A stretch of DNA of 64,000 nt from Salinarchaeum sp. Harcht-Bsk1 (GTDB lineage Archaea > Halobacteriota > Halobacteria > Halobacteriales > Salinarchaeaceae): positions 1,321,014 to 1,385,013 of the forward strand of contig NC_021313.1 of NCBI RefSeq assembly GCF_000403645.1. Direction: 5' to 3'. Shown piece after piece: positions 3,081 through 8,363 of the stretch; within the stretch, counting starts at the first letter, position 1; every line of letters begins with the position of its first letter. Position numbers and translations under genes: made by a program. Under the pieces are notes generated by a model, which made no database searches, was not told where the DNA came from, and was given only the letters and a program-made list of their open reading frames with translations.

Positions 3081-4829
3081 ATGAATTCGGTCGAGCAGTA
3101 CAAGCAGAACAAGCACCCACTCGACGTGATCGAGGACGTCAAGGAGTACGCCGAGAAGGGCCTCTCCTTCGAGGAGATCGAGGAGCGCGCCGGCGGCGGC
3201 GAGTGGGAGCGCCTCAAGTGGGCCGGCATGTACAGTCACGGGGTCCAGGACGGCTACTTCATGATGCGAACGAAGGTCCCCGGCGGCAAGCTCACGCCCG
3301 AGCAGGCCGAGGTCGTCGGCGAGGTCGCCGACGAGTACGCGACCGCGCCGGAGAAGTACGGCGGCGAGCACCAGAACGAACACTGGGGCGACGCCTACCT
3401 CGACATCACGACCCGACAGGACACCCAGTCACACTGGATCGAGGTCGAAGACGTCCCCGAGATCTGGGAGAAGTACGAGGAGGTCGGGCTGACGACGATC
3501 CAGGGCTGTGGGGACTCCGCCCGGAACGTGCTGGGCTGTCCCGCTGCCGGGCTCGACGACCACGAGTGCTTCGATGCCCAGCCGGTCATCGACGCTGTCT
3601 CCGAGTACTTCACGGAGAATCGCGAGTACGCGAACCTCCCGCGGAAGTACAAGATGACGATCACCGGCTGCCGGGAGGACTGCGCGCAGTCCCAGATCAA
3701 CGACGTCGGGCTGACGCCGGCGCGCAAGGAGATCGAGACCGACGGCGCAGGCCAGAGCACCGAGGAGATCTACGGCTTCCACGCCAAGGTCGGCGGCGGG
3801 CTCTCCGACGGCCCGCGAATGGCGTCCCCGCTCGACGTGTTCGTCCGCCCGGAGGACGCCGTCGAGTTCTGCCGCGCCGTCGCGCAGACGTTCAAGGAGA
3901 TCGGCGACCGCAACAACCGCGGCGTGTGCCGGATGCGCTACCTCGTCGAGCAGCTCGGCCCCGAGACATTCGAGGAGGCAATCCGCGACCGCTGCGAGGT
4001 CGACCTCCGCTCGCGTGGCACCGATCTCACCGAGGGGTACAAGGGCGACCACGTCGGCGTCCACGAGCAGAAGCAGGACGGCCTGAACTACGTCGGCTTC
4101 AACGTCATCACCGGCCGGATGGGCGGCGAGGAGTTCGCCGAAGTGGCCCGCGCCGCGAAGCAGTATGGCACCGAGGACGCCTCGATTCGCCTCGCGACCG
4201 ACCAGAACTTCCTGATCACGCACATCCCGGACGAGAACCTCGACGACCTGCTCGCCGAGGACTTCGCCCAGGAGTACAAGCCCGACCCCGGCCCCTTCGA
4301 GCGCGGCGCGGTCGGCTGCACCGGCTCGGAGTTCTGCAACTACGGCATCATCGAGACGAAGAAGCGCGTCAAGCGCTGGGCCCGCGAACTCGACGAGCGG
4401 ATCGACACGCCCGACGACCTCGAGGTCGTCCGGATGCACATGTCGGGCTGCTCGGCGTCCTGTGCCCAGCCCCAGATCGCGGACATCGGCTTCCGCGGCG
4501 AGACGGTCAAGATGACCGGCGAGAGCGAGTCGGACGCACCGCAGTCGCCCGAAGCCGAGAACGAAGAGAGCGACATGGTCGAGGGGATGGACTTCGGCCT
4601 CGGCGGCGCGCTCGGCAGCGACAACGAGTTCCTCGACTGGGTCGAGACCGCCGTCCCCGCAGACGCCGTGATTCCGGCGCTGGAGGAACTGTTCGCCGCC
4701 TTCGCTCGCGAACACGAGGAGGGCGAGCGCTTTTACGAGTGGTGCCGCCGGACGGACAACGAGCGGCTCCGACGCGTCATGCAGGGCGCGGACGCACCGG
4801 TTGCCAAAGGGGTGGCCGGGGATGACTAA
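3081..4829 (+). CDS. Sirohaem/4Fe-4S nitrite or sulfite reductase (NirA/SiR family)
   Basis: This 582-residue assimilatory reductase performs a six-electron reduction of nitrite to ammonia or sulfite to sulfide. The C-terminal half has the signature of the coupled sirohaem/[4Fe-4S] centre: C-X5-C at residues 413 and 419 and C-X3-C at 457 and 461. Both halves show the duplicated ferrodoxin-like/haemoprotein repeat of the family (TGCREDCAQSQ in the first half, SGCSASCAQPQ in the second). ATG at 3081 starts MNSVEQYKQNKHP; upstream codons in the same frame do not look coding. The stop overlaps the start of the FrhB-like gene by 8 bp, so electrons may come from that partner rather than from free ferredoxin. 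Nitrite and sulfite cannot be separated from sequence alone. Confidence 0.88.
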   Translation: MNSVEQYKQNKHPLDVIEDVKEYAEKGLSFEEIEERAGGGEWERLKWAGMYSHGVQDGYFMMRTKVPGGKLTPEQAEVVGEVADEYATAPEKYGGEHQNEHWGDAYLDITTRQDTQSHWIEVEDVPEIWEKYEEVGLTTIQGCGDSARNVLGCPAAGLDDHECFDAQPVIDAVSEYFTENREYANLPRKYKMTITGCREDCAQSQINDVGLTPARKEIETDGAGQSTEEIYGFHAKVGGGLSDGPRMASPLDVFVRPEDAVEFCRAVAQTFKEIGDRNNRGVCRMRYLVEQLGPETFEEAIRDRCEVDLRSRGTDLTEGYKGDHVGVHEQKQDGLNYVGFNVITGRMGGEEFAEVARAAKQYGTEDASIRLATDQNFLITHIPDENLDDLLAEDFAQEYKPDPGPFERGAVGCTGSEFCNYGIIETKKRVKRWARELDERIDTPDDLEVVRMHMSGCSASCAQPQIADIGFRGETVKMTGESESDAPQSPEAENEESDMVEGMDFGLGGALGSDNEFLDWVETAVPADAVIPALEELFAAFAREHEEGERFYEWCRRTDNERLRRVMQGADAPVAKGVAGDD

Positions 4830-6669
4830 CGAGGCAACCGAGGAGGCGAAGCCGACGACGGGCGCCTCGGAAAGAGCGAGCGGTGAGCGGAGCGAGCCGC
4901 GAGCCGAGCAATCAGAAGCACCTGCAGACGCCGCGCCAGAGATCGCAGAGCACCCTAACGAGGAGACCGAGCAGCTCTGTCATCCAGCGGTCCCCGAGGT
5001 CGGTGAGAACGATGACGGCCACTCCGTCCCGCGCGCCGAGGGCATCCGCACGCACCGCCCCGCCAGCGAGCACGGCACGATCCCGGCCGAACAGATCGGT
5101 CCGGCGGATCCGGACGGTCCGGTGCCCGCCGCGCCCGAAGACGATCACAGCCACGACCACGGGCACGATCACGGCGACGACGGCAGCGAGGGCAGGTGCG
5201 GCTGTGGCGATACCTGTGGCTGCTCGGACGATACCGGCGGACAGCCGGCCGTGGCCGCCGATGGAGGCGCCACCCCATCCAACGTCACGCCCGACGGTCA
5301 GCTCGACCTCGGCGAGATGACCGAGCCCGCGGAGGGCGTCAGCCAGGACATCGAGCACGAAGATCCCCCCGACGAGCGCGTCGGCCTCCCCGATGGCGTC
5401 GACCTCGACACCCCCGGCTACGAGATCCGCGACCGGATGAACGACATCGAGACGCCCGACGAGAAGACGTGGTTCATGGAGCTCGACGAGGCCGTCATCG
5501 ACGAGGACCGCTGCATCCAGTGTGGGACCTGCGTCGCCGCCTGTCCCTCCGACTCCATCGGGATCGGCGATGACGACCTCCCCGAGCTCGTGAAGATGTG
5601 CACCGGCTGCTCGCTGTGCTGGGACTTCTGTCCCCGCGGCGGCCTGCGCTACGAACGCCAGTGGAAGCTCACCGGTGGGGATGACAACGTGAAGGGCGCC
5701 GGCGACCCGATCACCGAGTTCTCCGCGACGGTCCAGGAGGACTGGCGCGAGAACGCCGAGACGGCGGAGCCGTCTCGAGCTCTCGCTCACGACGTTCGCG
5801 AGAACGCCCAGGACGGCGGGGTCGTCACGTCCGTCCTGATTCACCTGCTGGAAGCGGGAGAAATCCACGGCGCACTCGTCGCTACTGAGTCCGAGGAAGC
5901 GCCCTGGAAGGCCGAGGCCTTTCTCGCGACGACGCCCGAGGAGTTGATCGCGAACGCGGGCAGCTTCTACAACCAGACGATGGCGCTGGGCAACGTCGAT
6001 TTCGGCCAGTGGGAGCACAAGCTCCCCGACGTCGACCCCGAGGACCTCTCGCTGGCGCTCGTCGGCACGCCCTGCGAGATCGAGGGCATCCGCGCGCTGC
6101 AGGACTTCGAGTGGGACTACGCCGCCCACGAGACCGGCGTCCGGGCGATCGACTACACGATCGCGCTAATGTGCACGAAGAACTTCAACTACGAGCGGCT
6201 CCTCGGCGAGCTGGTCGAGGAGGAACGCGGGATTCCGATCGAGTCGATCGGCAAGCTCGACGTCCTCCACGGCGACCTGATGGTCTGGGACACCGACGGC
6301 GAGATGGTGCTCCAGGAGGAGATCGAGCACTTCCACGACGCCGCGCTGAAGGGCTGTGACGAGTGCGCGGACTTCACCGGCTTCACCGCCGACCTCACCG
6401 TCGGCTCCGTCGGCTCCTCGGATGAGTACTCCAGCGTCATCGTCCGGACCGAGCAGGGAATGAAGGCCTGGAACCTGACGAAGGACGATCTGGACTTCCA
6501 CGACCTCGAGGACCGCTCCGCGATCGGCAAGCTCCAGGGCTGGGACAAGAAGCAGGCCTTCGAGTCGCTCGAACGCGAGTTCGACCCGGACGCCCCGCGC
6601 TTCATCGACTACACCGACCACGCCGAGCACTACGGGACGGAGCTGAACCCCCACGACGCGGGGCACTGA
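4822..6669 (+). CDS. F420-dehydrogenase beta-subunit (FrhB)-like protein with two 4Fe-4S ferredoxin motifs
   Basis: A 615-residue iron-sulfur flavoprotein-like subunit of the FrhB/FpoF family, predicted to move electrons between reduced F420 and a partner. Residues 1-200 are an acidic extension with a His/Cys cluster (about residues 107-137, HSHDHGHDH then CGCGDTCGC). Two ferredoxin clusters follow: Cys 231/234/237/241 and 260/263/266/270. The rest is the FrhB N- and C-domain, with LVGTPCEIEGIRAL, LMCTKNFNY and CDECADFTGFTADLTVGSVG as family landmarks. The ATG at 4822 overlaps the reductase gene by 8 bp, implying one transcript and probably one complex. This pairing resembles a split version of methanogen F420-dependent sulfite reductase, where an FrhB module and a sirohaem reductase are fused. 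Confidence 0.85.
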   Translation: MTNEATEEAKPTTGASERASGERSEPRAEQSEAPADAAPEIAEHPNEETEQLCHPAVPEVGENDDGHSVPRAEGIRTHRPASEHGTIPAEQIGPADPDGPVPAAPEDDHSHDHGHDHGDDGSEGRCGCGDTCGCSDDTGGQPAVAADGGATPSNVTPDGQLDLGEMTEPAEGVSQDIEHEDPPDERVGLPDGVDLDTPGYEIRDRMNDIETPDEKTWFMELDEAVIDEDRCIQCGTCVAACPSDSIGIGDDDLPELVKMCTGCSLCWDFCPRGGLRYERQWKLTGGDDNVKGAGDPITEFSATVQEDWRENAETAEPSRALAHDVRENAQDGGVVTSVLIHLLEAGEIHGALVATESEEAPWKAEAFLATTPEELIANAGSFYNQTMALGNVDFGQWEHKLPDVDPEDLSLALVGTPCEIEGIRALQDFEWDYAAHETGVRAIDYTIALMCTKNFNYERLLGELVEEERGIPIESIGKLDVLHGDLMVWDTDGEMVLQEEIEHFHDAALKGCDECADFTGFTADLTVGSVGSSDEYSSVIVRTEQGMKAWNLTKDDLDFHDLEDRSAIGKLQGWDKKQAFESLEREFDPDAPRFIDYTDHAEHYGTELNPHDAGH

Positions 6670-6815: not shown

Positions 6816-8363
6816 ATGAGCGGGACAATCGATGACGTGCTCGTCGTCGGGGGCGGCGACATCGGGCTGTTGACGGCGCTGGGAATTCAGAAGCAGCTGC
6901 CCGCCGTCGACGTCCGGGTCGTGGACGACTTCGGGACCGAGGTGCCACAGGTCGGCAAGAGCACCTACCTCGACATCCAGAACATCCTCCACGGACAGCT
7001 AGAGATCGAGGAACCGGAGTTCATCGACGAGGTCAAGCCGATCTGGAAGGCGTCGGTCTTCTTCCGGGACTGGTGTGACACCGACGCGTTCCACTACCCC
7101 TTCGACGTCTCAGACACGTTCAAGCAGCCCGACACCCGCAACTCCTCCGAGCATCTCGTCTACTACTACGACAACCTCTACGACAGCGATGACCACCTGA
7201 CCCGCTGTGAGCAGATCGTCAGCCAGGGCAAGTCCCCGTGGTACCACGAGCAGAACGGCGACCTGAGCAAGTACACCAAGTGCGCCTACCACCTCAACAC
7301 CGCGCGGTTCAACGGCTACCTCCGGAAGCTCTGCCGGCAGCGCGGCGTCGAACTCGTGAACGACGAGATCACCGACGTCGAGACGACCGGCTCGCACGTC
7401 GACGCCGTCCACAGCGGGAGCGACTCCTACGACGCCGACCTGTTCGTCGACGCGACGGGGTTCAACCGGATCCTCCGGAGCGAGCAGGACGAGGCCGAGT
7501 TCCGCGACTTCGAGTTCCCGCTCGACTCGGCGTTCAACGTCCGGATCGACCGCTCGCTCGACGACGTGATCCCCGCGACCGTCGTCGAGTCGGGCGACTA
7601 CGGCTGGTTCTGGCACATCGACACCTACGACAACCGCGACCTCGGCTACGTCTTCGCTTCCGAGTACGTCGACGACGAGGACGCTCTCGAGGAGTTCCGC
7701 GAGTACGTCGACGAGGTGGCGACCGCCGACGCCGACCCGGATCCCGTCGGCGACGTCGACGACGTCGACAAGTACGAGTTCACCTCGGGGTACTACGAGC
7801 GAGCGTGGGTCGACAACTGCCTCGCGATCGGGAACGCCGAGGGGTTCGTCGAGCCGCTGCAGTCGACGGCGCTCACCGCGAACGCGTCGCTGGCGATGCA
7901 GTTCGCGAAGCTTCTCTCCGCCCACGGCCGGATCGCCGACGACGACGTTCGGATGGCGTACAACCGCGCCGCCGAGCGCACGTGGGAGACCATCTACGAC
8001 TTCATCGCGGTCCACTACAAGTACTCCTACGACGACACGGAGTTCTGGCGCGAGATGGCGACGCGGGAGTACAGCCCCCGACTCGACCGGATCGCCGAGG
8101 AGTTCGACCGCTACGGCTACGACTGGCAGGTCGAGCGCGCCAACGAGGACGGCCTCCAGGAGCTCTCCGTGTTCACAGTGCCGGACTTCTACGCAATGAT
8201 GCGGCCGCTCGGTGCGAGCTCCGTGTTCTACGACACCAACGACTTCACCGTGAGCAACGACCTCGTGCGCGAACTCGAGCAGTACTACCGCCGGATCCGC
8301 ACCCAGGTCCAGCAACAGCACCTCACCGTCCGCGAGTTCTACGAGGGCGTCCTGAACGCCTGA
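6816..8363 (+). CDS. FAD-dependent tryptophan-halogenase-like monooxygenase
   Basis: This 515-residue flavoprotein resembles flavin-dependent halogenases. An N-terminal dinucleotide fold (VLVVGGGDIGLLTALGIQ, residues 8-25) is followed by GKSTYLDIQ, at the place where halogenases have their GE(A/S)T segment. The block GYGWFWHI-like (DYGWFWHIDTYDNRDLGY near residue 265) parallels the WxWxIP signature. A further GNAEGFVEPLQSTAL motif is the second flavin-contact region (GDAAGFIDPLFSSG in relatives). Whether it halogenates is open, because IP of the signature is replaced by ID; it may be a dehydrogenase or hydroxylase. A free flavin reductase would be needed and is not adjacent. It stands alone downstream of the reductase pair, 146 bp away. 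Confidence 0.75.
   Translation: MSGTIDDVLVVGGGDIGLLTALGIQKQLPAVDVRVVDDFGTEVPQVGKSTYLDIQNILHGQLEIEEPEFIDEVKPIWKASVFFRDWCDTDAFHYPFDVSDTFKQPDTRNSSEHLVYYYDNLYDSDDHLTRCEQIVSQGKSPWYHEQNGDLSKYTKCAYHLNTARFNGYLRKLCRQRGVELVNDEITDVETTGSHVDAVHSGSDSYDADLFVDATGFNRILRSEQDEAEFRDFEFPLDSAFNVRIDRSLDDVIPATVVESGDYGWFWHIDTYDNRDLGYVFASEYVDDEDALEEFREYVDEVATADADPDPVGDVDDVDKYEFTSGYYERAWVDNCLAIGNAEGFVEPLQSTALTANASLAMQFAKLLSAHGRIADDDVRMAYNRAAERTWETIYDFIAVHYKYSYDDTEFWREMATREYSPRLDRIAEEFDRYGYDWQVERANEDGLQELSVFTVPDFYAMMRPLGASSVFYDTNDFTVSNDLVRELEQYYRRIRTQVQQQHLTVREFYEGVLNA

Follow-up and report, generated by a model that had tools for sequence, protein, structure and literature searches.

The alpha and beta genes

The window analysed here is a 64,000-nucleotide stretch of the Salinarchaeum sp. 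Harcht-Bsk1 genome (NC_021313.1, positions 1,321,014 to 1,385,013, forward strand), a genome that consists of a single contig of 3,255,260 bp. Positions 3081 to 6669 of the window carry two overlapping genes, here named alpha and beta, which encode a sirohaem reductase and an FrhB-type protein and which, judging from their sequences, probably specify an assimilatory-type sulfite reductase dependent on reduced coenzyme F420 (F420H2), abbreviated aFsr. The alpha open reading frame extends from the ATG at 3081 to the TAA at 4829 (582 residues) and the beta frame from the ATG at 4822 to the TGA at 6669 (615 residues). A first-pass annotation, made from this DNA alone, had described a sirohaem reductase overlapping an FrhB-like gene by 8 bp, and the overlap is indeed exactly 8 bp. 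Since all 20 orthologous loci compared show an overlap of either 8 or 11 bp, the ATG at 4822 was accepted as the start of beta.

Analysis of alpha with Pfam identified two sets of NIR_SIR and NIR_SIR_ferr repeats. Among solved structures alpha matches spinach nitrite reductase (4e-81) and Mycobacterium tuberculosis NirA (2e-63), and its best PDB and NCBIfam matches are ferredoxin-nitrite reductases. Beta contains a Fer4 dicluster followed by the FrhB_FdhB_N and FrhB_FdhB_C domains, which agrees with the FrhB-like protein carrying two ferredoxin clusters of the first-pass annotation. The Pfam E-values for the pair (4.5e-53 and 1.4e-32), together with the adjacency of the genes in 64 of 64 genomes, exclude chance as an explanation. 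The principal features are given below; clades A to D are the groups of alpha homologues delimited in the following section.

3081..4829, + strand: alpha, sirohaem [4Fe-4S] reductase of the NirA/assimilatory type, predicted sulfite reductase (aFsr-alpha); Pfam, PDB matches and invariant cluster cysteines
4822..6669, + strand: beta, predicted ferredoxin domain with two clusters joined to an FrhB domain for F420H2 oxidation (aFsr-beta); Pfam Fer4, PF04422 and PF04432, solved relatives
4822..4829, + strand: alpha/beta overlap of 8 bp, ATGACTAA; sequence and the overlaps of relatives
3645..3653, + strand: Lys189-Tyr-Lys191 (K-x-K), sulfite-type anion-binding pair of alpha; alignment
4317..4463, + strand: CX5C...CX3C ligands of the sirohaem-coupled [4Fe-4S] cluster of alpha (C413, C419, C457, C461); invariant in 66/66 sequences of clades A-D
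5488..5634, + strand: Fer4 dicluster of beta, 8 cysteines (231-270), two [4Fe-4S] clusters predicted; all 8 in 21/21 clade A and 19/19 clade B sequences
5778..6504, + strand: FrhB domain of beta with flavin adenine dinucleotide (FAD) helix QDGG, cluster cysteines C418, C451, C512 and C515, and F420-loop GSVGS; Pfam, alignment

The ligand pattern of alpha agrees with the assimilatory cluster motif CX5CXnCX3C given in PMC10229431. In beta, none of the 21 clade A sequences lacks any of the four cysteines of the FrhB cluster or the eight of the ferredoxin type, and all cluster cysteines are likewise invariant in clade B.

Conservation of the pair across haloarchaea

A survey of 244 haloarchaeal genomes returned matches to alpha in 214 genomes, which fall into four clades, and members of the FrhB family in 71. 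Clade A, to which the window belongs, is present in 64 genomes at 73-84% identity to the window alpha; clade B shares about 41-53%, clade C 45-49% and clade D 41-44%. In all 64 clade A genomes an FrhB gene lies on the same strand at most about 1.2 kb from the reductase gene, and all 23 clade B matches tested have an FrhB partner of their own, with a 24th observed in genome G002. Clades C and D have no FrhB partner. Conversely, all 71 genomes that bear an FrhB gene also carry a clade A or clade B reductase. Co-conservation across haloarchaea, the check that the first-pass annotation had put forward, is thus borne out by 64 of 64 genomes with FrhB beside alpha; relatives of alpha without a linked FrhB gene, the outcome that would have refuted the reading, were sought in clade A and not found. 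Three of about 91 FrhB genes are unpaired, and their host genomes also carry clade A. These three lie at G106:C7:50013 (locus L103), G243:C1:435700 and G192:C1:1163624-1164030, and the G192 copy looks frame-shifted or broken.

A maximum-likelihood tree, computed by a quick method and with long branches flagged, supports each clade as well as the split of A+B from C+D (Shimodaira-Hasegawa-like approximate likelihood ratio test, SH-aLRT, 98-100), and the FrhB partnership therefore occupies one side of a single branch. Alpha and beta are a conserved unit. Clade C occurs in 28 of the 64 genomes with clade A and in 140 of the 180 without it (odds ratio 0.22, p 1.4e-6, a statistic that ignores kinship), so that clade A tends to stand in for the unlinked clade C and vice versa. 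Clade A is the sole NirA-type reductase found in 12 of its 64 genomes. The genome of the window is among these twelve; a search of it returned clade A and neither clade C nor clade D. Among the named organisms of the scan, Salinarchaeum laminariae stands closest, with a beta core 93% identical to that of the window.

In sister clade B, an N-terminal double rhodanese is fused to the sirohaem reductase (L084:7235-10915, L087, L093 and 16 more among L085-L102; confirmed by Pfam in three loci), and the ferredoxin-FrhB gene follows directly after the fusion gene. The rhodanese-reductase fusion was already noted in PMC11237513; its fixed FrhB partner seems not to have been described in the literature. 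The neighbourhoods of clade A gave no functional clue, their conserved neighbours resembling housekeeping genes.

Active site and substrate of alpha

The anion-binding pair of alpha takes the form K-x-K, which is shared by 21/21 clade A, 19/19 clade B and 19/19 clade C sequences (59/59 in all), whereas 7/7 clade D sequences have K-x-N (K-F-N). The motif looked uninformative before clade D supplied this contrast. R63, R148, K189 and K191, the residues of the sulfite-type active site, occur without exception in the 21 clade A sequences. The sulfite reductase NirA of M. tuberculosis has K-Y-K at the corresponding pair, while plant nitrite reductase has K-W-N at the same site. The same Lys/Asn exchange has been reported between plant nitrite reductase and the F420-dependent sulfite reductase (Fsr) of methanogens (PMC13381448). 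In each of the 7 clade D loci read, the reductase adjoins a molybdopterin nitrate-reductase-like gene, which was identified from its cysteine motif and surroundings and not through a family search, and clade D was therefore taken to represent the haloarchaeal assimilatory nitrite reductase of the NasD type. No molybdenum nitrate reductase was found near clade A at the 20 loci examined. Alpha also retains the pair Tyr51/Cys153, which is kept in clades A (21/21) and B and which we take to occupy the positions of the covalent Tyr-Cys bond reported in M. tuberculosis NirA; clade D has Phe in place of Tyr51. Although alpha belongs to the same reductase superfamily as the NasD type, at about 42% identity, it shares neither the nitrate reductase linkage, nor the missing FrhB partner, nor K-x-N, nor this Phe. 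With M. tuberculosis NirA (1ZJ8), a ferredoxin-dependent sulfite reductase, it shares the two-repeat architecture and the K-Y-K pair. That enzyme, unlike the window pair, draws on a soluble ferredoxin and is not known to have an FrhB partner.

Where the first-pass annotation had left the choice between nitrite and sulfite open, the comparison favours sulfite and makes nitrite less likely. Since clades A, B and C carry K-x-K, the nitrate-reductase-linked clade D carries K-x-N and the genome of the window holds only clade A, sulfite is the likelier substrate of alpha by its sequence, with nitrite as a possible side or condition-dependent substrate. Clade C, at 45-49% identity and lacking FrhB, had been considered as the nitrite reductase. 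This assignment was rejected, since no nitrate reductase occurs at clade C loci and the link to NasA turned out to belong to clade D; clade C is now regarded as a probable sulfite reductase, unlinked and of the K-x-K type.

Electron donor and proposed mechanism

When a profile of beta was compared with solved structures, the best matches were 8RIU (a component of F420-linked CO dehydrogenase), Fsr, 8RJA (a component of formylmethanofuran dehydrogenase) and FrhB, with the match to the N-terminal part of Fsr (Fsr-N) reaching 150 bits. A fold search placed the same F420 enzymes on top and the non-F420 relative HCAR lower, although the AlphaFold model of beta is weak (39 close sequences, mean predicted local distance difference test score, pLDDT, of 53) and such fold matches only back up the sequence results. 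The FAD helix, the GSVGS loop and the FAD-loop Tyr are retained in the beta alignment. Beta shares its FrhB domain, FAD helix, GSVGS loop and four cluster cysteines with the F420-oxidoreductase subunits FrhB, FpoF and FGltS, whose partners are instead a hydrogenase, a membrane complex or a glutamate synthase. CofD was found in 243 of the 244 genomes, that of the window included, and the latter also encodes an F420:NADP reductase (212 bits, over the cut-off). Together these results make F420H2 the likely electron donor of beta; as the first-pass annotation had suggested, it is the best-supported candidate by homology.

We infer that the two proteins form a complex in which the FAD of beta, bound in its FrhB domain, would receive a hydride from reduced F420. 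From FAD, single electrons would travel through the FrhB [4Fe-4S] cluster to the two [4Fe-4S] clusters of the N-terminal ferredoxin domain, which would dock on alpha at the site used by free ferredoxin in NirA-type enzymes. They would then reach the [4Fe-4S]-sirohaem centre of alpha, where six electrons would convert sulfite into sulfide. Fsr spans the gap with two additional clusters housed in an inserted domain (PMC10229431); because alpha lacks a domain of this type, the ferredoxin domain of beta most likely docks directly.

The idea of such a pairing has been known as a prediction since 2012, when Susanti and Mukhopadhyay described a putative "aFsr alpha/beta" for F420H2-dependent sulfite reduction (PMC3448663) from Halogeometricum, Halorhabdus, Halalkalicoccus and Haloterrigena; in 2022 aFsr was still termed putative (PMC9295563). 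The window pair is a further member. Like the published aFsr, its alpha is a duplicated assimilatory sirohaem reductase with a full-length match to nitrite reductase and NirA and the CX5C...CX3C motif, its beta is an Fsr-N homologue with an FrhB domain and two N-terminal [4Fe-4S] sites, the genes are adjacent, and the sulfite-type active site is present, which would suit the same proposed reaction. Nothing essential differs; the window beta has a private 17-residue insertion and an Asp in place of one Lys of the F420 turn. New here are the full linkage in the 244-genome survey, the division into clades and the contrast of substrate motifs with clade D.

Alternative explanations

Several observations weigh against an F420H2-dependent sulfite reductase, beginning with the fact that no biochemical experiment on the aFsr pair was found in the literature. 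Regarding the donor, the KGK turn of FrhB has been proposed to lie near or touch F420 (PMC3591093). Of the 21 clade A members, 13 retain the second Lys of this turn, which leaves about a third of the clade without this F420-contacting residue; the window has Asp instead, and the entire turn is lost in clade B. HCAR is an FrhB-fold protein able to work without F420. Halophiles, moreover, are reported to contain only small amounts of F420 (PMC8305020). Beta could on these grounds be an electron adaptor that passes electrons from ferredoxin, as in HCAR, or from NAD(P)H to alpha; we consider this unlikely, since its closest relatives, whether judged by sequence or by fold, are without exception F420 enzymes, the remaining residues of the FAD and F420 pockets are conserved, and F420 biosynthesis and F420:NADP reductase are present. 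The substrate invites a comparable doubt. Sirohaem enzymes often reduce both sulfite and nitrite, and the ferredoxin-nitrite reductases that head the database matches of alpha would suit an F420H2-dependent nitrite reductase, the same complex with nitrite as its physiological substrate in nitrogen assimilation or nitrite detoxification. In addition, the Lys form of the site still reduces nitrite, as the K-x-K Fsr of Methanococcales does in vivo (PMC13381448), so that K-x-K does not exclude this anion. A nitrite reductase is nonetheless an improbable reading of the pair: the nitrate-reductase-linked haloarchaeal enzymes form the separate and well-supported clade D with K-x-N, this clade is already present in 47 of the 64 clade A genomes, none of the examined clade A loci has a nitrate reductase nearby, and clade B is fused to rhodanese. 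The first-pass annotation had further regarded the pair as the modules that are fused in methanogen Fsr (7NP8, 7NPA), and the domain logic is in fact shared, in that a ferredoxin domain and an FrhB module supply electrons to a sirohaem-[4Fe-4S] reductase, and beta matches Fsr-N well. That haloarchaea split a true Fsr into two genes is nevertheless extremely improbable, and the claim that the modules are the same is not supported. Fsr is a single chain (groups I and II) where the pair has two reading frames, and the Fsr reductase has one S/NiR repeat into which a ferredoxin domain with two clusters is inserted; in alpha the NIR_SIR repeat occurs twice and Fer4 is missing, and alpha scores 277 bits along the full plant nitrite reductase against 37 bits across 200 residues of Fsr. 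PMC3448663 also groups aFsr-beta with FpoF/FqoF and FGltS(I) rather than with Fsr-N. The split was accordingly rejected on domain architecture, two defining features of Fsr being absent, and by sequence alpha-beta is a pairing parallel to Fsr.

A further alternative concerns the purpose of an F420H2-dependent sulfite reductase rather than its chemistry. Assimilation, as the first-pass annotation had it, is unproven: ATP sulfurylase (PF01747) was not found in the genome of the window, and the sole PF01507 protein there is a divergent, weak and generally present relative, which also occurs in two genomes without any NirA-type match. A supply of sulfite from sulfate is therefore not evident. The pair might rather detoxify sulfite or use outside sulfite, thiosulfate or sulfonates, all possible sources of sulfite, and to this we assign somewhat less than an even chance. 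Fsr is known to protect methanogens from sulfite (PMC10229431), and the double rhodanese fused to the clade B reductase points to thiosulfate as the source in that clade; a sulfate route could still operate through other sulfate-activating enzymes (CysN or the divergent PF01507 protein). Only 6 of the 244 haloarchaeal genomes have ATP sulfurylase, though most carry K-x-K sirohaem reductases, and the enzyme was dropped as a marker of sulfate assimilation on account of this count.

Candidate second metal centre and wider meaning

In the vestigial half of alpha, C153, C197 and C201 (3537-3539, 3669-3671 and 3681-3683) are either all present or jointly replaced, nearly all-or-none across the family, as if the three together bound a metal or cluster. 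M. tuberculosis NirA has no Cys at the positions of C197 and C201. An extended model would make A and B a monophyletic family of F420H2-driven sulfite reductases in aerobic haloarchaea, independent of Fsr, in which the clade B rhodanese would release thiosulfate-derived sulfite directly onto the reductase and C153/C197/C201 would hold a second metal centre; taken as a whole, we regard this model as rather unlikely. PMC8305020 knows of one reported F420-dependent reaction in halophiles. The alpha-beta pair offers a concrete candidate for a role of F420 in haloarchaea, and if the proposed function is true, F420H2-driven sulfite reduction was invented twice, separately, in archaea.

Other features of the locus and family

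Two further features of beta lie outside its conserved domains.

5145..5232, + strand: stretch rich in His and Cys, DDHSHDHGHDHGDDGSEGRCGCGDTCGC, within the N-terminal extension of beta, itself poorly conserved; alignment
5755..5805, + strand: in-frame insertion of 51 bp (17 residues) after the ferredoxin domain and before the FrhB domain; alignment with the DNA of three relatives

Within the extension, 18 of the 21 clade A sequences have C132 and 19 have C134, whereas clade B has neither. Most clade A members retain a Cys-rich motif here (CxCGxxCGC or C-x4-CxCG), which in the window beta is preceded by a His-rich run. The 51-bp insertion is private to the genome of the window, being missing from every other aligned clade A member. 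It is flanked on both sides by direct repeats, CGCGAGAACGCC (region 5748-5806), and contains a strong hairpin, GAGACGGC-GGA-GCCGTCTC (z -2.7). A dispersed element was considered and rejected, as the core of the insertion is single-copy in the genome.

Upstream of the pair lies a divergent histidine kinase gene (2837-1689) and directly downstream, at 6816-8363, a FAD-dependent gene of the tryptophan-halogenase family; neither belongs to nitrogen or sulfur metabolism. In four probable clade C genes (G061:C11:65433-67106, G125:C1:785213-786895, G174:C3:106843-108528 and G099:C18:8269-9897) the match breaks near residue ~320 while the frame stays open, which suggests that additional in-frame sequence has been inserted where the halves of these reductases join. 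Finally, Halorubrum laminariae carries the beta gene twice, 41 kb apart on one scaffold (L184, L185), and Haladaptatus salinisoli has a copy on a plasmid (L169), both of which are signs of horizontal spread.

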